Shown here: piece after piece, positions 3,180 to 55,984 of the stretch
How the letters are laid out: every line of letters starts with the position of its first letter
Numbering within the stretch: the stretch's first letter is position 1
Source: Rhodospirillaceae bacterium
GTDB lineage: Bacteria; Pseudomonadota; Alphaproteobacteria; Rhodospirillales; Rhodospirillaceae
Direction of reading: 5' to 3'
Assembly (NCBI GenBank): GCA_029243545.1
Contig: JAQWRV010000005.1
Location: 1-64,000 of the forward strand
Length of the DNA: 64,000 bases
Position numbers and translations under genes: made by a program
Notes under the pieces: generated by a model
What the model was told of the DNA's origin: nothing
The model's input: the letters and a program-made list of their open reading frames with translations, nothing else
Database searches by the model: none

Positions 3180-3521
3180 TCAAGTTGTCGCGTCGGCCGC
3201 GCGCACCTGTACCGTCGTACGCTGACTCACATAAACACAAACGAAAGCTGCAACACAGAGTCCGATCATCATATTGATGACGGGATAATAGTTATCGGAC
3301 ATCACGCGCAGCTGGGCTAATGCGGCAATACCCATGGCACCGACAAGCTTATCGATAAACACGTATACGCCCAGAATGCGGCCATAGGTAGGGCCGGCGA
3401 ACAACTCGGCGATCATCAATTGGATCATGGTAAACGCGCAAGAGAAGCCGATGCCGTAGATGACCGCATAGGTCAGGCACAGACCGCCGAGCAAAATACA
3501 CCCGTAAAACACACGACACAT
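3180..3521 (-). pseudogene. internally deleted MFS transporter, third tandem copy
   Basis: This 113-residue frame starts like its neighbours (VFYGCILLGGLCLTYAV) and then, without a stop or shift, continues as the last quarter of the same family (YGIGFSCAFTMIQLMIAELF, then GPTYGRILGVY). About 300 residues, from helix 1 to around helix 9, are missing. The joint falls where N-terminal Tyr-Ala-Val resembles C-terminal Tyr-Ala-Ile-Val-Tyr-Gly-Ile in the paralogues, suggesting deletion between short similar sequences. Start codon and an AAGGGA upstream are intact, so it may still be made as a short membrane protein. It lies 38 bp after fghA and 13 bp before the intact copy. Transport by this product is very unlikely. 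Confidence 0.75.
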
Positions 3522-3559
3522 GGCAGCGTTCCCTTTTGAATCAATACCGTGCTTATCAC

Positions 3560-4417
3560 TTATTTGAGCGCTGCAGCGTGATGACGAAGATGGTCTTCCA
3601 TAAACGTGGAAATGAAATAATAGCCGTGATCGTACCCTGCGTGACTGCGCAGCGTTAGGGACAACCCGACCTCAGAACAGGCGTTCTCTAACAAATGTGG
3701 ATGCAGCTGGGTTTTAAGAAACGAATCACTCATACCCTGGTCGATGAGCAGCGGCGGACGCCCGTGAGCATCATCCTTGCTCAAACTTAAAATAAGCTCG
3801 GCGGCATCGTATTCACGCCAGGTTTCTTGTTGCGGCCCAAGATATAGCCGCAAAGCCTTGTCGCCCCATGGGCAGTGCAGGGGAGAACAGATCGGCGCGA
3901 AGGCCGAAATACTGCGGTATGTGTCGGGATTTTTGAGGCCGATGGTGAGTGCGCCGTGACCACCCATGGAATGACCGAAGATGCCTTGCCGATTGGGATC
4001 TGCCGGAAATCCGTCGCGTATAACGGTGTTCAGTTCCTGGGTGATGTAGGAGCACATGCGATAGTGCGCCGCATAAGGCGCTTCCGTCGCATCAAGATAA
4101 AACCCGGCGCCATGACCAAAATCCCATCCGCCGTCGGGATCATCCGGAACGTTCTCGCCACGCGGCGAGGTATCGGGCGCGACCAGCATGAGGCCAAGTT
4201 CGGCCGCCACCCGCTGCGGCCCAGCCTTAGTCATGAATGTTTCTTCCGTGCAAGTCAGGCCGGCCAGATACGTGAGCACCGGCACAGGACCATCTTTAGC
4301 CTGCGGTGGCACAAACACGGAGAATCTCATCGAGCACTGTGTTTCCGTCGCATCATGGCGATAAAACCCCATGGTGCCGTTAAACGATGCATGCTCAGAG
4401 AGTGTTTCAAAGGTCAT
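3560..4417 (-). CDS. fghA: S-formylglutathione hydrolase
   Basis: Hydrolyses S-formylglutathione to formate and glutathione, the second step of glutathione-dependent formaldehyde removal, in the cytoplasm. The 285-residue esterase-D-type protein shows the nucleophile motif GHSMGGHGAL with Ser near residue 150, and candidates for the rest of the triad in LIDQGMSD (Asp) and AGYDHGYYF (His). YLAGLTCTEETF near residue 50 is a family hallmark. I place the start at 4417 (MTFETLSEH), 10 bp after the adhC stop, rather than at codons lying inside adhC. It directly follows adhC, which makes its substrate, so the pair is almost surely one transcription unit. Confidence 0.93.
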   Translation of the reverse strand: MTFETLSEHASFNGTMGFYRHDATETQCSMRFSVFVPPQAKDGPVPVLTYLAGLTCTEETFMTKAGPQRVAAELGLMLVAPDTSPRGENVPDDPDGGWDFGHGAGFYLDATEAPYAAHYRMCSYITQELNTVIRDGFPADPNRQGIFGHSMGGHGALTIGLKNPDTYRSISAFAPICSPLHCPWGDKALRLYLGPQQETWREYDAAELILSLSKDDAHGRPPLLIDQGMSDSFLKTQLHPHLLENACSEVGLSLTLRSHAGYDHGYYFISTFMEDHLRHHAAALK

Positions 4418-4427
4418 GGGATGCAGC

Positions 4428-5618
<1,191 letters not shown>

Positions 5619-8167: not shown

Positions 8168-9436
8168 ATGTTAGAATCGATGCAGAGCGCTTTGGGACTG
8201 GTTGTGCTCACGGGAGCGGCCTGGGCGATGAGCGAACAGCAATCTGCTGTTTCCTGGCGGGTGGTCGGGACAGGTCTTTCAGCCCAATTGATCATCGCGT
8301 TAGCGCTTCTCAAGGTGGGTGTATTTCAAGACGTTTTTGCGGTGCTGAACAACGGCGTGATGGCTGTCGCCGATGCGACACGCGCCGGAACATCATTTGT
8401 CTTCGGCTATATCGGGGGTGGCGAAGTACCTTTTGTGGTACGTGACGATGCCGGCTCAACGTTCGTGCTCGCGTTTGAGTCACTCCCTCTGATCTTGGTG
8501 ATCAGTGCAATTTCAGCTCTTTTGTTTCATTGGAAAATTATGCCGCCAATCGTGCGTGGGTTTGCATGGGCCCTGCGCCGGACGATAGGTGTGAATGGTC
8601 CTGTCGGCATTGCGGTAGCGCTTAATATTTTCATGGGCCAGACTGAGGCGCCAATCGTTGTCCGGCCCTATTTGAAGACGGAATCCCGCGCCGGACTATT
8701 TGTAATTATGACGGCGGGCATGGGTACCGTCGCTGGCTCGGTGATGCTTCTCTATGTAACCTTTTTAGACGGAATAATTCCTAACCCGCTGGGTCATATT
8801 CTCACGGCATCTCTGATTAGTGCGCCGGCTGCAATTATGGTTGCGCTTCTGATGATTCCAGAAGACCCAGATCGTGCGGACGACGCTTCGGACGCCCATG
8901 TACAGTTTCCGTCTGAGGAAGGTGATAATGTGATGGCCGTTGTTACACGAGGCACGCTGGAAGGTGTTCAGTTGGTCATTAATATTATTGCCATGCTGAT
9001 TGTGCTTGTTGCGCTGGTGACTCTCACCAATATGATTATGGGCATCCTACCTTATGTGAATGGTGAGCCGCTAACCTTGCAACGCATTCTTGGGTGGGTT
9101 ATGGCGCCGGTGGCTTGGCTGATAGGAATTCCCTGGAGCGAGGCCTTCACCGCCGGTTCTCTCTTGGGGACAAAAACAATTCTGAATGAATTGATTGCCT
9201 ATATAGATTTTTCTCAGTTGCCCGAAGATGCACTTAGCCCGCGCAGCCGCCTCATTATGACTTACGCGCTGTGCGGGTTTGCCAACCTGGCATCAATCGG
9301 AATTGGCATTGGCGCCCTGTTAACCATGGCGCCCGAACGCCGCAGAGATATTATTGAACTCGTTCCACGCGCGGTCATTTCTGGAACCATTACGACGCTT
9401 CTCACGGGCGCCATGGTGGGCGTGATCTCAACCTAA
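8168..9436 (+). CDS. concentrative nucleoside transporter (CNT/NupC family)
   Basis: A 422-residue inner-membrane cation-coupled nucleoside carrier. The family motif NIFMGQTEAPIVVRPYL, which contributes to nucleoside and sodium binding, is present near residue 160. The second conserved region, including GSLLGTKTILNE and the C-terminal ALCGFANLASIGIGIG, is intact. Length fits bacterial NupC-type proteins. The start at 8168 follows GGGGGCAATGA; a nearby ATG at 8164 is out of frame. It is alone in its unit. Uptake of nucleosides for salvage is the expected role; exact specificity is not readable. Confidence 0.9.
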   Translation: MLESMQSALGLVVLTGAAWAMSEQQSAVSWRVVGTGLSAQLIIALALLKVGVFQDVFAVLNNGVMAVADATRAGTSFVFGYIGGGEVPFVVRDDAGSTFVLAFESLPLILVISAISALLFHWKIMPPIVRGFAWALRRTIGVNGPVGIAVALNIFMGQTEAPIVVRPYLKTESRAGLFVIMTAGMGTVAGSVMLLYVTFLDGIIPNPLGHILTASLISAPAAIMVALLMIPEDPDRADDASDAHVQFPSEEGDNVMAVVTRGTLEGVQLVINIIAMLIVLVALVTLTNMIMGILPYVNGEPLTLQRILGWVMAPVAWLIGIPWSEAFTAGSLLGTKTILNELIAYIDFSQLPEDALSPRSRLIMTYALCGFANLASIGIGIGALLTMAPERRRDIIELVPRAVISGTITTLLTGAMVGVIST

Positions 9437-9652
9437 ACTGCACAGCTTCGACTGGTTCCAACTGCCGAGAACGCCTTTATGGTTCACACACTGGAGATGG
9501 GCATTAGCATTCACGCGAGCCGGCGCGCGTTCTTGTCAACGTCACACACAGATTCGGATACCGACTTGATTATTGAGGTTTGAATCACCGCCCGGGACCG
9601 AGCAGCAGCTGACGGTTTGTTTAGCAATCCCAGCTGACCGCCTTACTGTTTC
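9437..9652. other. intergenic, nothing identified
   Basis: This gap lies between two convergent genes. I saw no coding frame with a family resemblance and no strong hairpin followed by a T run. Confidence 0.4.
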
Positions 9653-10039
9653 TTAGTCTAAAACATTCAAAGCAGCGCTAAGGTCTGAACACCTTTGCAG
9701 AATGACGTCTATCGACTTGGCATTGGTTTCAGCTGCTTGTTGCCGCGCCCTTTCCGACGTGCAGGACATGTTATAGAGGCGCCGAATATTACGTACTAGT
9801 TCGTCATCGCACGGCGCCGTGCGTGCAACCTCAATGTCCCGATGGACAGGCAGGTCAAGTTTATCATTAAAAACGGGCGCATCACCTATCATCAATCCCG
9901 GAACTAAGCCGGGGGGATTGATCAGTTGACCAGCATCATTCTTAAACGCAACCTCAACACATTGCGCAGACGAACGCTGATCAGCCAGCACGCACGCCGC
10001 GAGCGTTAAGGCAAAAAATAGCGGTTTATTCACGTGCAT
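9653..10039 (-). CDS. small exported protein of unknown function
   Basis: A 128-residue protein with a typical signal peptide: positive start MHVNK, hydrophobic FFALTLAACVLA, likely cleavage around SSA-QC near residue 26. The mature part has four Cys, so periplasmic disulfides are possible. No domain recognised; the only notable composition is a helical C-terminal third (SERARQQAAETNAKSIDVIL). A lipoprotein reading is weak, since the Ala-Ala-Cys within the hydrophobic core is not a clean lipobox. Its start lies 26 bp past the 3' end of the tRNA-Leu on the same strand, so it might be read through from the tRNA promoter. Confidence 0.55.
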   Translation of the reverse strand: MHVNKPLFFALTLAACVLADQRSSAQCVEVAFKNDAGQLINPPGLVPGLMIGDAPVFNDKLDLPVHRDIEVARTAPCDDELVRNIRRLYNMSCTSERARQQAAETNAKSIDVILQRCSDLSAALNVLD

Positions 10040-10064
10040 TATCCATAAACGGTCATCAATATTA

Positions 10065-10151
10065 TGGTGCGGGTGAAGGGAATCGAACCCCCACTCCCCG
10101 AAGGGAACCAGATTTTGAGTCTGGCGCGTCTACCAGTTCCGCCACACCCGC
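10065..10151 (-). tRNA. tRNA-Leu (anticodon CAA)
   Basis: The minus strand folds as an 87-base tRNA with acceptor stem GCGGGTG/CACCCGC and an encoded CCA end. The anticodon loop around CTCAAAA reads CAA (decoding UUG). A long variable arm closed by TCCC/GGGA is present as in class II tRNAs, with a T loop GGTTCGATTCC. All features agree with tRNA-Leu. A good promoter lies just upstream. Confidence 0.95.
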
Positions 10152-10169
10152 ACATAGTAAGAAGCGCTC

Positions 10170-10198
10170 CTTATAACGGCGACGCCGGGTACCCGCAA
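10170..10198 (-). promoter_or_regulatory. promoter of tRNA-Leu
   Basis: On the minus strand TTGCGG (10193-10198) and TATAAG (10170-10175) are separated by 17 bases. The expected start site falls about ten bases before the tRNA 5' end, the usual arrangement of a housekeeping-sigma tRNA promoter. Confidence 0.6.
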
Positions 10199-10288
10199 GC
10201 GAGCTTCTTGCACCACCTGAGATGGGCTCAGCCGGACATTGCTGCGTTCCATGGGACCTGCTACACCGCGCGTAATGGAGCTTTACCG

Positions 10289-10870
10289 ATGATTCAAAGA
10301 TTATATGACTGGGTCCTCGCATTGGCCACAAGGCCAAATGCACTTTGGCTCCTCGCCATTATCGCCTTCATTGAGGGTTCCATATTTCCAATCCCGCCCG
10401 ACGTGATGATTTTGCCAATGATCTTGGCGGCTCCTACCCAAGCCTGGCGGATCGCTGGCGTTGCAACTGCGGCAAGTGTCCTCGGCGGATTTGCCGGCTA
10501 TGCCATCGGCATGTTTCTGTTTGACCTCGCAGGCCAGCCCTTACTCGATTTTTATGGATACGCAGAAAATTTTGAAGAATTTCAGTCCCTTTATTCAGAG
10601 TGGGGGGCATGGATCGTATTTGGCACCGGACTTACACCGTTCCCATTTAAAGTCATCACCATTGCCAGTGGCGCACTCGCTTTTGATCCACTTGTATTTG
10701 GCGTCGCAGCGATCCTTGCGCGTGGTATTCGCTTCTATTTAGAAGCCGCGTTCCTTTGGAGGTTTGGCCCGCTAATTCGCGAACTTGTCGAAAAACGGCT
10801 AGGGTTGTTCGCAACGCTCGGCTTCGTAGTGTTTATCGGCGGCTTTGTTGCGATTAAATGGATGGACTAG
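10289..10870 (+). CDS. DedA/YqaA-like membrane protein
   Basis: A 193-residue inner-membrane protein of the DedA/SNARE-associated (VTT) superfamily, closest in style to YqaA. FIEGSIFPIPPDVMILPMIL near residue 25 has the conserved Glu and Pro-Pro of the re-entrant loop. TGLTPFPFKVITIASGAL in the second half is the matching loop. I chose ATG 10289 because GGAG lies 8 bases upstream and the protein then begins MIQRLYDWVLAL; upstream in-frame codons would run into the tRNA. DedA proteins are linked to lipid scrambling and envelope homeostasis. dsbB starts 9 bp downstream, so they are likely co-transcribed. Confidence 0.85.
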   Translation: MIQRLYDWVLALATRPNALWLLAIIAFIEGSIFPIPPDVMILPMILAAPTQAWRIAGVATAASVLGGFAGYAIGMFLFDLAGQPLLDFYGYAENFEEFQSLYSEWGAWIVFGTGLTPFPFKVITIASGALAFDPLVFGVAAILARGIRFYLEAAFLWRFGPLIRELVEKRLGLFATLGFVVFIGGFVAIKWMD

Positions 10871-34550: not shown

Positions 34551-36239
34551 ATGGTTAAGCCTGTTGTCCGCATTGAAGATCTAAGCCTTGAATTCATAAG
34601 TCAGGCCGGCGCTTTTGAAGCGCTAAAAGGTATATCCCTCGATATCGGTGAGGGCGAGATAGTCGGGGTGGTGGGAGAGTCGGGCTCCGGTAAATCCGTC
34701 ACCGCCATGAACATCCTTCAATTACTGCCGCGCACAAAGATCAGAGTGCCCACCGGCTCCATCAATGTGTTGGATCACGATGTCCGCGCTATGAGCGAGA
34801 AACGACTGCAGCAAATTCGCGGTGGCGAAGTTTCGATGATTTTTCAGGAGCCCATGACCGCTTTGAACCCGGTGCTTCGGGTCAGCGATCAAATCAACGA
34901 CGTCATTCTCCGCCATAAAGACGTGTCCGCATTAGAGGCAGAAGAAATATCCCTGTCTCTTTTGGAGGACACGCAAATTGCGGACCCGCGCAGGGTCTAT
35001 GAGTCATACCCCCATGAACTTTCCGGTGGCATGCGCCAACGTGTCATGATTGCGATGGCATTTTCCTGCTCTCCTAAGCTTATTGTTGCTGACGAACCAA
35101 CCACAGCGCTGGATGTGACCGTGCAGGCGCAAATTCTCAGGCTGCTCAAAGAGCGGGCTGAAAAAACAAATACCTCCGTTCTGCTCATCACCCACGACTT
35201 AGCGGTGGTCGCGCAACTCTGCAATCGTGTTTACGTCATGTACAAAGGTGAGTTTGTTGAGGAGGGCACGACGCAAGATGTTATAGGCAATCCGCAACAT
35301 GTTTATACCAAAGCGCTGTTGAACTCCTTACCAGAAGGCAAGACACCAAAAAGCCGTCTTGCCACGGTCGCCGCCGCTATGTTGGAAGGTGGCTCCAACG
35401 ATAAAGTCATTAAATCCCCTGTCGCCGCTACGCGCATCGCCCGCAGCGGGGATACTGTTCTTGAAATCAAAAAGGGTACTGTGCGTTACCCCAAAGACTA
35501 CAACTTCTTTGGCCGGCCGATCACGTTTCACACCGCTGTTGATCATGTCAGCGTTGATATCAAAGAAGGCGAGACCTTGGCCTTGGTCGGCGAGTCAGGC
35601 TGCGGCAAAACGTCACTAGCTAATGCCGTCGTTGGACTTAATCCCTTGGCCGACGGGGAAATCATTTACCGCGGCAAAAATATAAAGGATCACGATCCAG
35701 AAACGCGGCGCGAGATCCAGATTGTATTTCAAGATCCCCAATCATCGCTTGATCCCCGGTGGCCGGTCTGGAAAATCATGACCGAACCTCTGACGGTCGG
35801 AAAATCTCTGGACAAGGCTGAGCTTAGAAAACGAGCCGGTGAGCTGTGTGAAATGGTTGGCCTAGAGCCTGACCAGATTGACCGCTTGCCCCATGAGTTT
35901 TCGGGTGGTCAACGTCAACGCATTGCGATCGGCCGGGCTCTCTCTGTGCGGCCCAAGCTACTGGTACTGGATGAGCCAACCTCCGCCCTGGATGTTTCTG
36001 TGCAGGCACAGATTTTGAACCTGCTGCTAGATCTCCAAGATGAATTTGGCCTGACCTACCTATTCATTTCCCACGATGTGGCGGTGGTCAGGCATATCGC
36101 AGACAAAGTTGCTGTGATGTACCAGAGCAAGGTGGTTGAGGAAGGGGACACGGAGCAGATTCTTTCAGCTCCGACCCATGAATACACCCGCACCTTGATG
36201 AATGCCGTCCCAAGCCTGGAAAAAGCTTTCGCAGCCTAG
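34551..36239 (+). CDS. fused dipeptide-type ABC ATPase (DppD-DppF)
   Basis: A 562-residue protein with two nucleotide-binding domains in one chain. NBD1 (about 5-265) shows Walker A VGESGSGKSVT, signature LSGGMRQRVMI and Walker B LIVADEPTTALD. NBD2 (about 305-555) shows VGESGCGKTSL, FSGGQRQRIAIG and LLVLDEPTSALD. The fusion of the usual two ATPases is common in some proteobacteria (YejF/GsiA-like). Each has the C-terminal oligopeptide-transporter extension with HEYTRTLMNAVPSL-type ending. It energises the two permeases encoded just upstream. Confidence 0.92.
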   Translation: MVKPVVRIEDLSLEFISQAGAFEALKGISLDIGEGEIVGVVGESGSGKSVTAMNILQLLPRTKIRVPTGSINVLDHDVRAMSEKRLQQIRGGEVSMIFQEPMTALNPVLRVSDQINDVILRHKDVSALEAEEISLSLLEDTQIADPRRVYESYPHELSGGMRQRVMIAMAFSCSPKLIVADEPTTALDVTVQAQILRLLKERAEKTNTSVLLITHDLAVVAQLCNRVYVMYKGEFVEEGTTQDVIGNPQHVYTKALLNSLPEGKTPKSRLATVAAAMLEGGSNDKVIKSPVAATRIARSGDTVLEIKKGTVRYPKDYNFFGRPITFHTAVDHVSVDIKEGETLALVGESGCGKTSLANAVVGLNPLADGEIIYRGKNIKDHDPETRREIQIVFQDPQSSLDPRWPVWKIMTEPLTVGKSLDKAELRKRAGELCEMVGLEPDQIDRLPHEFSGGQRQRIAIGRALSVRPKLLVLDEPTSALDVSVQAQILNLLLDLQDEFGLTYLFISHDVAVVRHIADKVAVMYQSKVVEEGDTEQILSAPTHEYTRTLMNAVPSLEKAFAA

Positions 36240-36288
36240 GGTCTCCTAGGAGTCGCCTTTGGAACCGCGCATCACCCAGTCCAATACA

Positions 36289-36316
36289 GCGCCCTGTTTA
36301 GCAAGGGCGTTAATGA
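36289..36316 (+). terminator. possible terminator after the ABC importer
   Basis: CGCCCT (36290-36295) pairs with AGGGCG (36304-36309) around an 8-base loop, followed by TTAATGAATGGTATT, only weakly T-rich. Plausible end of the importer unit. Confidence 0.4.
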
Positions 36317-36400
36317 ATGGTATTATATTCTTCTATATTCCCATTAATTAGAATTTTATTCTATTTTTAGATGTTATTCGTATATATTTTATTTCAACAG
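36311..36400. other. 90-bp A+T-rich island
   Basis: By count only about 17 of these 90 bases are G or C, against about half elsewhere. It lies between the importer unit and the DUF1501 gene and contains several TATATT-like hexamers. It could hold a promoter, an UP-like element or a nucleoid-protein site. Confidence 0.6.
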
Positions 36401-36472
36401 GCAGATTTCGGCGTAGACCTGCAATACAGCTTCTAAGTATGATCACCATCTTTGAAGAATTCTCGTTTCGCT

Positions 36473-36487
36473 AGGAGGCACCCAATA
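36473..36487 (+). promoter_or_regulatory. strong Shine-Dalgarno pointing to an ATA codon
   Basis: AGGAGG (36473-36478), a perfect anti-16S match, is followed after 6 bases by ATA (36485-36487) in the DUF1501 frame. The codons after ATA read Lys-Leu-Thr-Arg-Arg, where family members usually have Met-Lys or Met-Thr before the twin Arg. This decides the start placed for the gene. Confidence 0.6.
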
Positions 36488-37786
36488 AAACTTACTCGCA
36501 GAAATCTCCTTGCCAGCGCTACAAGTGGCGCGTTTATGGCGTCAGCAGGCCCCGGCCTCCGTGTTTCCATGGCCGCCGAAGGCTCAGGTGCCGGTGACAT
36601 ACTCGTCGTACTGTTTGCACGCGGCGGTACCGATGGCCTTCAACTTGTAGCACCCGCCAACGACAGTGTTTACCAAGACGCCCGGCCGACCATTGCCGTT
36701 CAGACCGGCGGCACGAATGCTGGTCTTCCGCTCGCTAATGGCATCGGTGGTGTGGACTTCTTCTTCAACCAAGATGCGACCGAGTTGAACGATCTTTACA
36801 CGTCGGGCAACCTGGCTCTTATCCATGCAGCCGGTGTGCCAACTGAAAACCGTAGTCATTTCAAGTCCATGGACATGATGGAACGCGGCTTGGCCGACGA
36901 CGAAACCAGCCTTACGTCAGGCTGGCTGACCAGGCATGTTAAAACGTTGACGGCAGAACGGCCATGGTTGTCGACCGTCTCAACGGCATCCAACAACCCG
37001 ATTTCTCTACTGGGTTACCCGCAAGCGGTTAGCATACCTGACGTGCAGAGCTTCAATGTCTCCGGCGGAGACGTGAATGCAAACGTCATAGCGGCGCTGA
37101 ACGCATCTGGCGGATCCGCATATCAGCAGGCTGCGCTACAGACTTTGGATGCGATTGATACCGTGCAAACTAAACTGCAAGAACTCGATGATGCCGAAGG
37201 TGATGATAGCGATAGCGAAGCCGGACCGGCCTATACTAATGGGCCGCTGTCTGGCGCATTACGCAACCTTGCAACTCTGATCAAGATGGATGTGGGCCTG
37301 GATGTCGCTACCGTCGATCAAGGCGGCTGGGACCACCACAACAATCTACTCAATGAGTTCAGCAATAATGCGACCGAATTGTCTCAGTCATTGGGGGCTT
37401 TTTGGGAAGATATGGTCGACTATCAAGACCGCATTTCATTGGTGTTTATGACAGAGTTCGGACGCCGCCTCGGCGAAAATTCAAGCGCAGGGACGGACCA
37501 CGGTTCGGGTTCAGTTATGATGGTCTTGTCCGGCAATGCCAATGGCGGACAGATGTACGGCGAATGGCCCGGCTTAGAGGGCGTCAACCTCAACAACGGG
37601 GACTTGGCGGTCACCACCGACTATCGCCAAGTGATCAGCGAAGTGTTGGCCAAGCGTCATTGCAGCCCCTCACTCGATACCGTGTTCCCGACCGTTGCCT
37701 ATAATCCACTCGGGCTCGTTAACGGTGACGATTCAGCACTCACTGGCGCAGCCGTTGCCAACGCTGGAACCACAAGCACGAGCTAG
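36485..37786 (+). CDS. DUF1501 family Tat-exported protein, apparent ATA start
   Basis: About 433 residues from the apparent ATA start. The N-terminus has a twin-arginine signal (LTRRNLLASATSGAFMAS, then Ala-rich with a likely cleavage near MAAEG). The mature part shows DUF1501 marks: LVVLFARGGTDGLQLVAP, GVPTENRSHFKSMDMMERGL, QGGWDHHNNL and MTEFGRRLGENSSAGTDHGS. The family is sulfatase/alkaline-phosphatase-like by fold and often pairs with a DUF1800 gene; none is adjacent here. An in-frame TTG at 36452 lacks a ribosome binding site, and the first in-frame ATG would delete the twin Arg. Function unknown, periplasmic or outer surface. Confidence 0.8.
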   Translation: MKLTRRNLLASATSGAFMASAGPGLRVSMAAEGSGAGDILVVLFARGGTDGLQLVAPANDSVYQDARPTIAVQTGGTNAGLPLANGIGGVDFFFNQDATELNDLYTSGNLALIHAAGVPTENRSHFKSMDMMERGLADDETSLTSGWLTRHVKTLTAERPWLSTVSTASNNPISLLGYPQAVSIPDVQSFNVSGGDVNANVIAALNASGGSAYQQAALQTLDAIDTVQTKLQELDDAEGDDSDSEAGPAYTNGPLSGALRNLATLIKMDVGLDVATVDQGGWDHHNNLLNEFSNNATELSQSLGAFWEDMVDYQDRISLVFMTEFGRRLGENSSAGTDHGSGSVMMVLSGNANGGQMYGEWPGLEGVNLNNGDLAVTTDYRQVISEVLAKRHCSPSLDTVFPTVAYNPLGLVNGDDSALTGAAVANAGTTSTS

Positions 37787-38000: not shown

Positions 38001-39809
38001 TCACGTTCTTTGCGATAGCGCTTTGGCGACGGTATCAAGAACCTCAGACCATTGGTCTTTTTCTGTTTGCCGGAAAATCTGAACGTTGGGGTACCAAAGC
38101 GCGGCATCACCCGAGAGCCCCCATCGCCATTCTGGAAACTTGGGAACCATAACCCATGCTTCTTTACCGAGAGCACCAGCAAGGTGAACTGCCGTGCCCG
38201 ACGTCGCAATAACAAGGTCTAGGGCGGCAATTTGAGAAGCGGCAGCATCTAGACTCTGCATCGGGTCGACATCAGGATCAGAAAAGATACGAACACCTGT
38301 ATTGTTTTCCGTATCTGCGATCGCCGCGCCGGTATCTCCATATTGAAGACTTACAAAAAATGCGTTCTCCGATTTCAAGATCGGTGACCACTGCTCCAGT
38401 GAGAGTGATTTAGTTGTACCGAATGATGGATTAACGCTGTGCCACGCGATGCCGACCATGAGCCGGCCTTCCGCGTGCGCTTTATATTTATTGGCAAGAT
38501 CCGCAACGGACCTTTCATCCGCTTTGATATAGGACTGTGGACTAGCAAAATCCGCAAGAGATCGTCTAAAGAGGCGGCCGAGAGATCCGATTGGAATTTG
38601 GGCCCGACAACTCTTGATGACCTCTTCAGGCAAAGAATCATAACCGTATACTGAGAGATTCTGGGACGCACGCTGTATCAGCGGCACCAGACGAGGTTCA
38701 ATTTCGACCACCACTTCTAGGCCAAGGTCAGATAGATTTGAAAGAATCCCAGAAAATAAAATTTGGTCGCCAACGCCCTGCTCTCCCCAGATAAGCAGCT
38801 CTTGACCGGACAAATCGTTTCCATCCCAAAGGGGGAGCCCGCGGTCTCTCTTCTTTGAAATAAAACTTGAAACGCCCCACCGGGTTTCATACCCATCCCA
38901 ACCGTCTGACCATTGCCCCCGCAACAACTGAAGCCGGCTCAGATTATATTGTGCGTCTTTACACCCGGGATCTATTGCCAAAGCAGCACGGCAGTCTGAG
39001 TCTGCGCCATCTAGCTGACCGGTCCGCTCTCTGGCCCCCCCCCTATTGATGCGCGTTATGACATGATCAGGACAGACACCTATGACCTGATCGTAGATGT
39101 CTAGCGCATCTTCTAGATTACCTGCCTCTGCGCTGATCACGCCTAGCGTCATAGTCGCGTCGGCCCATGGCGCAGTTCCCTCTGGAGCCACCTTTAGTGC
39201 TCTTTCAAGAGCCGTTCTCGCTCCAAGAAGATCGTTCTTCTGATGAAGTAAAAGCCCCTTGTTGACTAATATTTCTGCGTTATGAGGATCATGAGACAGC
39301 CCTGTCGCGTAGGCTGCTAAGGACTCATCTAGGCGGCCCAGATCCCTGAGGACGCTTCCGCGCACGTTATGGGCTTCTGGAAGGTAAGCTTGAGCGCCGA
39401 TCGCCTTATCAATCGCATCAAGCGCTGCGTCAAAGTCTCTATCCCCGACTAAGAACCGGGCTAGGTTGATTTGAGCCGAGGCTTGTGTGGGGTCAAGCGC
39501 AACAGCTTTTTCGAAAACCTTGCGTGATCCCGCCTGATCTCCAGTCGCCTCTAGAGCCATACCGAGGTCATTCCATATGGCGGCATCGTCTGGACGCGCT
39601 TTTATAGCTTTCTCAATCAAGGGAATAGCTAGATGCGGATCTCCAGACTGCAGAAAGATCGTTCCCTTAAGCCACAAAGCGTCCGGTTGCGCAGGGTGCT
39701 TTTTCAAAACCTTTTCGTAGAGGATCAAAGCGCCTTTAAGGTCACCCGCTTTGTGTTTGGTAAAACCTTCATCAAGCCGGGATGCTATTTCTGGCGAGAT
39801 CTTACTCAC
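38001..39809 (-). CDS. TPR protein with a C-terminal glycosyltransferase-like domain
   Basis: A 602-residue protein. About residues 5-310 form eight or so tetratricopeptide repeats (for example LWLKGTIFLQSGDPHLAIPL, and AIWNDLGMALEATGDQAGSR). About 335-600 resemble a GT-B glycosyltransferase of the family 9/41 style: WGEQGVGDQILFSGIL near residue 345, then SGTAVHLAGALGKEAWVMVP and a typical end PNVQIFRQTEKDQWSEV. Such bacterial TPR-GT proteins are often linked to surface polysaccharide or O-linked modification. No polysaccharide genes flank it, so the role is unknown. Divergent from the hydantoinase gene. Confidence 0.75.
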   Translation of the reverse strand: MSKISPEIASRLDEGFTKHKAGDLKGALILYEKVLKKHPAQPDALWLKGTIFLQSGDPHLAIPLIEKAIKARPDDAAIWNDLGMALEATGDQAGSRKVFEKAVALDPTQASAQINLARFLVGDRDFDAALDAIDKAIGAQAYLPEAHNVRGSVLRDLGRLDESLAAYATGLSHDPHNAEILVNKGLLLHQKNDLLGARTALERALKVAPEGTAPWADATMTLGVISAEAGNLEDALDIYDQVIGVCPDHVITRINRGGARERTGQLDGADSDCRAALAIDPGCKDAQYNLSRLQLLRGQWSDGWDGYETRWGVSSFISKKRDRGLPLWDGNDLSGQELLIWGEQGVGDQILFSGILSNLSDLGLEVVVEIEPRLVPLIQRASQNLSVYGYDSLPEEVIKSCRAQIPIGSLGRLFRRSLADFASPQSYIKADERSVADLANKYKAHAEGRLMVGIAWHSVNPSFGTTKSLSLEQWSPILKSENAFFVSLQYGDTGAAIADTENNTGVRIFSDPDVDPMQSLDAAASQIAALDLVIATSGTAVHLAGALGKEAWVMVPKFPEWRWGLSGDAALWYPNVQIFRQTEKDQWSEVLDTVAKALSQRT

Positions 39810-55299: not shown

Positions 55300-55800
55300 T
55301 TAAGCTTCGCCAACGGTATCCAGTAGAGCGCAGGAAATTGCATCATCGGGAGTTCGTCCACCCCATATGACGAATTGAAAAGCGGGGTAGTACCGTTCGC
55401 ACTCACTTCGAGCGAGATCAACCAACTCGCTAATATGCGGCGCATCTATCCGGCCGCCTTGGCAGTAAATCGTATGACGGAACATGGGAATGCCTTCGTC
55501 GATCCAAATCGCAAAATGACCGATCCAAAGCCGTTCATTAAGTTTGGCAATGAGCTCGTAAATATTGTTTTGCACTTTCGGTTGTACGCGCATGTCCAGC
55601 GCACAAGAAAAATGCAAAGCGTCTAATTCTGCAGACCAGGCAAAAAACAGTCCAAAATCACACCATGTACCGGGCGCCTCGACGGCCATCTCTTCGTCGT
55701 TACGACGATCAAAAACCCAGTCTTTAATGGAAATGACTTCTTCTATGCGGTCCAGAGGGTTATCCGCAGTGGATTCGTGGCTGACGGTGGTGGTACGCAT
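55300..55800 (-). CDS. YbjN domain-containing protein
   Basis: A 166-residue protein resembling the YbjN/type III chaperone-like fold. GTWCDFGLFFAWSAELDALH then MRVQPKVQNNIYELIAKLNE and WIDEGIPMFRHTIYC are the conserved core. Start at ATG 55800 (MRTTTVSHES); earlier frame codons give an unlikely extension. Function of the family is poorly known; proximity to proC and ubiK is recurrent in alphaproteobacteria. Confidence 0.8.
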   Translation of the reverse strand: MRTTTVSHESTADNPLDRIEEVISIKDWVFDRRNDEEMAVEAPGTWCDFGLFFAWSAELDALHFSCALDMRVQPKVQNNIYELIAKLNERLWIGHFAIWIDEGIPMFRHTIYCQGGRIDAPHISELVDLARSECERYYPAFQFVIWGGRTPDDAISCALLDTVGEA

Positions 55801-55984
55801 AGAATTCCCCTCATCTGCCCCGGGCCCGACCGGTTGTTCGAGCCCACCAAAATATGGCCCGAAAATCAAGATATAGTAGGTTCAGAGGGTGAGCAATAAC
55901 AATTCTTAGGATTTCTGGCGAGTCGCGTAGCGCGACAAAACCTTCCTTAAATCTTGGTTTGGCCAGGCCAAAAAACCAAGGAAA

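Follow-up and report, generated by a model that had tools for sequence, protein, structure and literature searches.

A window of 64,000 nucleotides from a Rhodospirillaceae bacterium (contig JAQWRV010000005.1 of assembly GCA_029243545.1, the whole stretch analysed; positions below are those of the window) contains a DUF1501 gene whose reading frame opens with ATA, and the question raised by this locus is whether the codon serves as a start, marks the loss of the gene, or is an error in the sequence. The initial annotation had described an AGGAGG spaced six bases from an ATA that lies exactly at the family start before Lys-Leu-Thr-Arg-Arg, a description confirmed by the letters themselves, by the match to Pfam family PF07394 and by the ATG of the relatives. 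The position it gave for the beginning of the gene, 36473, is that of the Shine-Dalgarno sequence; the reading frame itself begins at 36485. The features at the start are as follows.

36485-37786, plus strand: DUF1501 coding frame of 433 codons, opening with ATA and closing with the stop TAG at 37784-37786; matches PF07394
36485-36487, plus strand: ATA codon at the family start position, ATG in all seven close relatives
36473-36478, plus strand: Shine-Dalgarno sequence AGGAGG, six bases from the ATA, its first two bases being part of the stop codon of a DUF1800 remnant
36494-36508, plus strand: twin-arginine motif T-R-R-N-L (in translation) of the export signal, with R5 and R6 invariant
36452-36454, plus strand: alternative in-frame TTG without Shine-Dalgarno sequence; no start codon at this place in the seven relatives

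The spacer between AGGAGG and ATA (36479-36484) reads CACCCA, and the ATA is followed in frame by AAA CTT ACT CGC AGA (K L T R R), such that the protein opens I-K-L-T-R-R-N-L-L. It matches PF07394 (DUF1501) with 98.3 bits against a cut-off of 27, is without a match in NCBIfam at E 0.001, and is encoded by the sole DUF1501 gene found in the 3.48-Mb genome. The twin-arginine motif at its N-terminus (KLTRRNLL) is recognized by motif alone; R5 and R6 are invariant across 17 aligned sequences, the window protein among them. Concerning the fold, DUF1501 belongs by clan assignment to the alkaline-phosphatase-like proteins. The structure model is of low confidence (mean pLDDT 50) and its matches in the PDB are weak (best E 5.8e-3, with none of 642 passing 0.001); among the 50 matches listed, most titles suggest the alkaline-phosphatase-like superfamily (YejM, EptC, sulfatases).

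A search of 148 genomes gave matches to the gene in 58, the window's own included. In the seven close relatives (G001, G023, G037, G043, G047, G052, and G056; 76-79% identity), ATG stands exactly at the position of the ATA and none has ATA, so that ATA replaces ATG as had been guessed, and the unusual start codon itself is not conserved. A further 29 loci, comprising the best-scoring matches only, include 28 with a readable N-terminus (L022 is cut by a contig end). By hand count, methionine occupies the start place, four residues before the first arginine of the RR pair, in 23 of these 28 best-scoring loci and lies further upstream in the remaining five; ATA at the start place was found in none of the 28.

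The energy of pairing with the anti-Shine-Dalgarno sequence at the ATA amounts to -10.5 kcal/mol, a value attained by 68 out of 5000 20-mers drawn at random from the window. It is the strongest among the eight genomes, the seven relatives ranging from -5.3 to -9.6; this agrees with a compensation of the weak codon, a single comparison of this kind proving little. For the 70 bases around the start, the folding energy (-9.2) is the weakest of the eight by a small margin (-9.4 to -15.4 in the relatives) and was not used.

Start codons were also surveyed across the window by ungapped comparison of the 57 genes with relatives in at least three of four genomes. In 22 of them the start is backed by a loosely defined Shine-Dalgarno sequence in at least two relatives, the other 35 being uninformative, and these 22 starts comprise 18 ATG, two GTG, the ATA of DUF1501, and one TCT backed by only two of the four relatives. 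The TCT is codon 27 of a stop-to-stop frame at 55300-55881 on the minus strand, for which the two relatives have ATG and a Shine-Dalgarno-like stretch. The 51 AGGAGG sites on both strands of the 263-kb contig are too few to judge an enrichment of ATA after AGGAGG. A CTG that follows AGGAGG at position 123545 of contig C21 likewise looked like a non-canonical start but was discarded, as an ATG lies directly before the CTG, five bases past the AGGAGG.

The surroundings of the gene differ from those in the relatives, where the order is gap, two permease genes, dpp ATPase, (TonB receptor), (DUF1800a), DUF1501, (DUF1800b), TPR protein, and oxoprolinase, the genes in brackets varying in their presence; the stretch of G056 ends inside the TPR gene, and its oxoprolinase match was found separately. 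Six of the seven relatives match the whole 616-residue C-terminal query of the receptor and G047 does not match it. DUF1800a is long in three relatives (G001, G052, and G056) and broken or a stub in G023, G037, G043, and G047; DUF1800b is long in G037, G047, G052, and G056, shortened in G043, and was not found in G001 and G023. The DUF1800a gene of the relatives, whether complete or reduced, closes with EEFSFR-TAG or a similar sequence, and its stop codon overlaps the DUF1501 Shine-Dalgarno sequence, an arrangement suggesting that the two genes may be translationally coupled. In the window the following parts are found around the DUF1501 gene.

34551-36239, plus strand: dpp-type ABC transporter ATPase, left flank, present in all seven relatives
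36300-36395, plus strand: A+T-rich spacer, by eye like the stretch upstream of the receptor gene of the relatives; may hold the present promoter
36404-36436, plus strand: 3'-end remnant of the TonB-dependent receptor gene (FGVDLQYSF-stop), 33 bp with 88% identity to three relatives (E 2.7e-5)
36439-36474, plus strand: open frame of 11 codons at the junction left by the deletion, closed by the DUF1800 stop, without Shine-Dalgarno sequence
36450-36474, plus strand: 3'-end remnant of the DUF1800 gene formerly located upstream (EEFSFR-stop, TAG at 36472-36474), with the same peptide and stop in relatives
38001-39809, minus strand: TPR protein, right flank, present in all seven relatives

The neighbouring DUF1800 gene, which is the usual context of DUF1501, is thus reduced to a tail remnant: only MITIFEEFSFR-TAG is retained, soon after the 33 bp of the receptor end, and the DNA match to the relatives at this tail begins at 36450-36454. 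No DUF1800 or receptor match was obtained by tblastn of the window, and no trace of a second DUF1800 gene was found between 37787 and 38000. Phylogenetic analysis of 29 proteins places the eight close sequences in a single clade (100/99) whose base is not resolved; within it, G047 and G056 are sisters (100/98). As the receptor, DUF1800a, and DUF1800b are all retained in G056, independent losses in G047 and in the window are the simplest assumption. The deletion removed the region before DUF1800a, the probable site of the original promoter; a promoter-like match is situated at 36298-36326, and the region 36200-36560 contains two such matches versus a mean of 0.7 in shuffled sequences.

Two further observations concern the relatives. 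A partly conserved leader precedes their TonB receptor gene, recognizable by eye around GAATGCAACAAG ... GGTTGCTTTCA ... CCGTTGGATGA; it is present in the loci L043-L049 except L046, is clearest in L045, L047, L048, and L049, and might be a regulatory element. By eye, neither the window nor G047 shows it. The dpp ATPase of G056 (locus L044, about 8959-10519 of the reversed locus) appears as two adjoining matches in different frames with no single frame spanning them, and represents either a broken gene or an assembly error.

Concerning the partner, Pfam search identified one DUF1800 gene in the window's genome, of 553 codons and situated on another contig (C27), with a counterpart in five relatives at 67-72% identity. 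A search with this C27 protein, by which more distant copies could be missed, found at least one long DUF1800 gene in each of the eight genomes. Exactly one is present in the window's genome (G000) and in G001, G023, G043, and G047, belonging to types c (unlinked), a, c, c, and b, respectively. DUF1501 at the locus is intact in all eight genomes, G052 possessing a second full-length copy. Across the loci L043-L049, the flanking DUF1800 genes are broken or missing in differing genomes, with DUF1501 intact throughout. On the simplest reading, DUF1501 would be a fixed partner with which one DUF1800 protein or another can pair, and this would also give a reason for its retention in the window's genome.

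The coding sequence shows no frame-breaking lesion and no damage at conserved residues: all 433 codons are open, and none of the 77 residues invariant in 28 homologues is changed in the window protein (zero to five changes in the other rows). Within the close group, the window departs from otherwise invariant columns more often than any other sequence (16/289), followed by G047 (14/287) and G001 (9/282), with one or two deviations in the remaining ones; a longer branch may explain the higher count of the window. Averaged over the seven relatives, the dN of the window gene is 1.41 times as high as the mean of the relatives among themselves, within the range of 1.38-1.89 obtained for eight genes nearby (two of which were compared with six relatives only), such that no relaxation is visible. 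Synonymous sites are saturated (pS 0.76 to the relatives), so that a recent end of constraint would be invisible, and a stop would result from 2.7% of the single-base changes possible in the frame.

A comparison within the same genome is provided by infC, the gene of initiation factor IF3, which in E. coli starts at AUU. In the window's genome (L076 1453, G000:C25) it reads GAGGAGACTCATAA-ATA GCT AGA CCC ATG ATG. The ATA directly follows the stop TAA, and therefore no upstream start is possible; the next ATG, four codons on, would be too far from the Shine-Dalgarno sequence. Among 73 genomes of the family searched, 70 matched and 50 loci were opened (L076-L125), of which 49 are readable and one is truncated (L084); 13 loci missed by the first patterns were taken up separately, with 12 of them readable. 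The aligned start codon is ATA in 42 of the 49 readable loci (its placement being uncertain in L112) and ATC in seven, and neither ATG nor GTG nor TTG occurs at this place in any of the 49. ATA occurs in each of the eight genomes that make up the close group, and the string ATAGCTAG is kept at the DNA level in many of the family loci. From this pattern we infer that ATA and ATC are the actual infC starts, which suggests that initiation at AUA may be routine in these bacteria; gene callers that accept only ATG, GTG, and TTG would set the infC start at a wrong place. Among the papers listed by a literature search, none treats an AUA start in alphaproteobacterial infC, to judge by titles and opening abstracts.

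Three other explanations of the ATA have to be weighed. That translation starts elsewhere, at TTG 36452 with 11 residues added before the ATA or at ATG 36536 with the twin-arginine motif removed, is very improbable. The TTG is chosen by an open reading frame listing restricted to ATG, GTG, and TTG, and the residues it would add are basic and might be tolerated before the motif, but its pairing with the anti-Shine-Dalgarno sequence reaches just -1.2 kcal/mol, compared to -2.8 for ATG 36536 (codon 18) and -2.0 for ATG 36569 (codon 29). In addition, the relatives read CCG (four), TCT (two), or ACC (one) at the place of the TTG, three of them have a stop codon between this place and the start, and the extension consists of out-of-frame DUF1800 and Shine-Dalgarno sequence. 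Initiation at ATG 36536 would delete the invariant R5-R6. An error of sequencing, assembly, or population consensus, the true base being G, is unlikely, even though the ATA rests on one assembled genome of the genus and constitutes a single transition at the critical base, with ATG in all seven close relatives. Against it, just one of 270 frames matched in four relatives gave an adjoining out-of-frame pair, largely opposite another gene, and no other frame-shift of the window passed the filter; the assembly looks clean, a statement that holds for indels only. A supposed frame-shift between the overlapping frames 3180-3671 and 3560-4498 was not supported.

Early decay of the gene, in which the loss of the receptor, of both DUF1800 genes, and probably of the promoter made DUF1501 dispensable and the loss of the ATG was the first lesion, deserves somewhat more attention, and we consider it possible at a low probability. 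Every local partner has been deleted. Several relatives have broken copies of the flanking DUF1800 genes, and additional DUF1501 copies survive as short fragments in G037, G023, and G043, so that the family does decay within this group. However, the window gene carries no other lesion and keeps all 77 invariant residues, and, by a rough inference, neutral drift beyond about 1.7% divergence would be expected to strike an invariant codon. The persistence of an intact DUF1501 at the locus in all eight genomes, while DUF1800 copies come and go, likewise argues against decay, as does G047, which lost the receptor and most of DUF1800 and yet kept an intact, ATG-started DUF1501.

The explanation to which we give somewhat better than even weight is that the DUF1501 gene is functional, that its ATG became ATA, and that the ribosome still starts there, weakly; this and the other probabilities expressed here in words are judgements, not computed odds. 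A weak working start appears likelier than a dead gene because the genome's own infC also appears to start at ATA. Counting against it, the region before DUF1800 and a possible translational coupling to DUF1800 are gone. Among the options of the initial annotation, the rare start and the weakening by an ATG-to-ATA change are hence favoured and merge into one reading, that of ATA as a weak working start, for which the intact frame, the infC ATA, and the retained unlinked DUF1800 gene speak; silencing and a base error are less favoured. The deletion of the partner genes and the apparent ATA start of infC had not been part of that annotation.

Under such a weak start, the full AGGAGG at six bases would hold the 30S subunit at the ATA and allow weak initiation. 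IF3 should disfavour AUA, and the expression of DUF1501 would probably be a fraction of its former level; it may rise or fall with IF3 activity, as expected for infC in the family. After the loss of the local partners (the TonB receptor and two DUF1800 genes) by deletion, DUF1501 would have been kept under constraint, probably because the protein still functions together with the one DUF1800 encoded elsewhere in the genome. The use of AUA in DUF1501 and infC, the expression level, the sensitivity to IF3, and the partnership in trans are all proposals drawn from the sequence. Going further, it is a tentative thought that the AUA or AUC of infC in the family is a conserved start sensed by IF3, and that the orphaned DUF1501 gained the same start together with a full Shine-Dalgarno sequence, IF3 setting its expression relative to the unlinked DUF1800.

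AUA start codons are already documented in Staphylococcus aureus, and the window gene would by analogy be of the same kind. In S. aureus, infC, ccpN, and citZ are reported to use AUA, as shown by ribosome profiling; reporters of ccpN and citZ reach about 10% of AUG in poor medium and that of ccpN up to 30% in rich medium; and the starts of infC, ccpN, and cvfC1 are accompanied by extended Shine-Dalgarno motifs (PMC13009471). The window gene shares with infC, ccpN, and citZ an AUA at the start position and a strong Shine-Dalgarno sequence at proper spacing, without a well-placed canonical start. S. aureus, however, is a Firmicute studied by profiling and by the ccpN and citZ reporters, whereas the present case concerns an exported DUF1501 protein of an alphaproteobacterium known here from sequence alone. 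Moreover, the AUA is described there as conserved across species for ccpN and as occurring in strains of one lineage for citZ (PMC13009471), whereas the ATA of the window gene, in contrast to that of ccpN, is absent from all seven close relatives. That IF3 disfavours non-canonical starts is stated in two reports (PMC13009471, PMC5472188), the second of which describes a GTC start codon of Streptomyces sigR repressed by IF3. Equally to sigR, the window gene would be a non-canonical start outside the translation machinery; the codon is a different one, and repression by IF3 is shown for sigR but only proposed for the window gene. In DUF1800-DUF1501 pairs, for which a predicted operon and a Tat motif on DUF1501 are described (PMC5122149), the twin-arginine signal lies on the same protein as here, and the relatives of the window gene likewise have DUF1800 directly upstream. 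The window itself differs from these pairs in that its adjacent DUF1800 consists of the last codons, the only DUF1800 found being on another contig.

If the ATA works, it would be a case of native AUA initiation in an alphaproteobacterium for a gene outside the translation machinery, and the ATG-started relatives would serve as ready controls. Gene callers generally seek ATG, GTG, and TTG, and those restricted to these codons would begin DUF1501 at the doubtful TTG and give the protein a false N-terminus. The ATA or ATC of infC across the family is the more general point, and the question of AUA initiation could be tested with two genes of one genome. The history of the cluster points to an uncharacterised exported pair, in which DUF1501 would be the constant and DUF1800 the interchangeable member.
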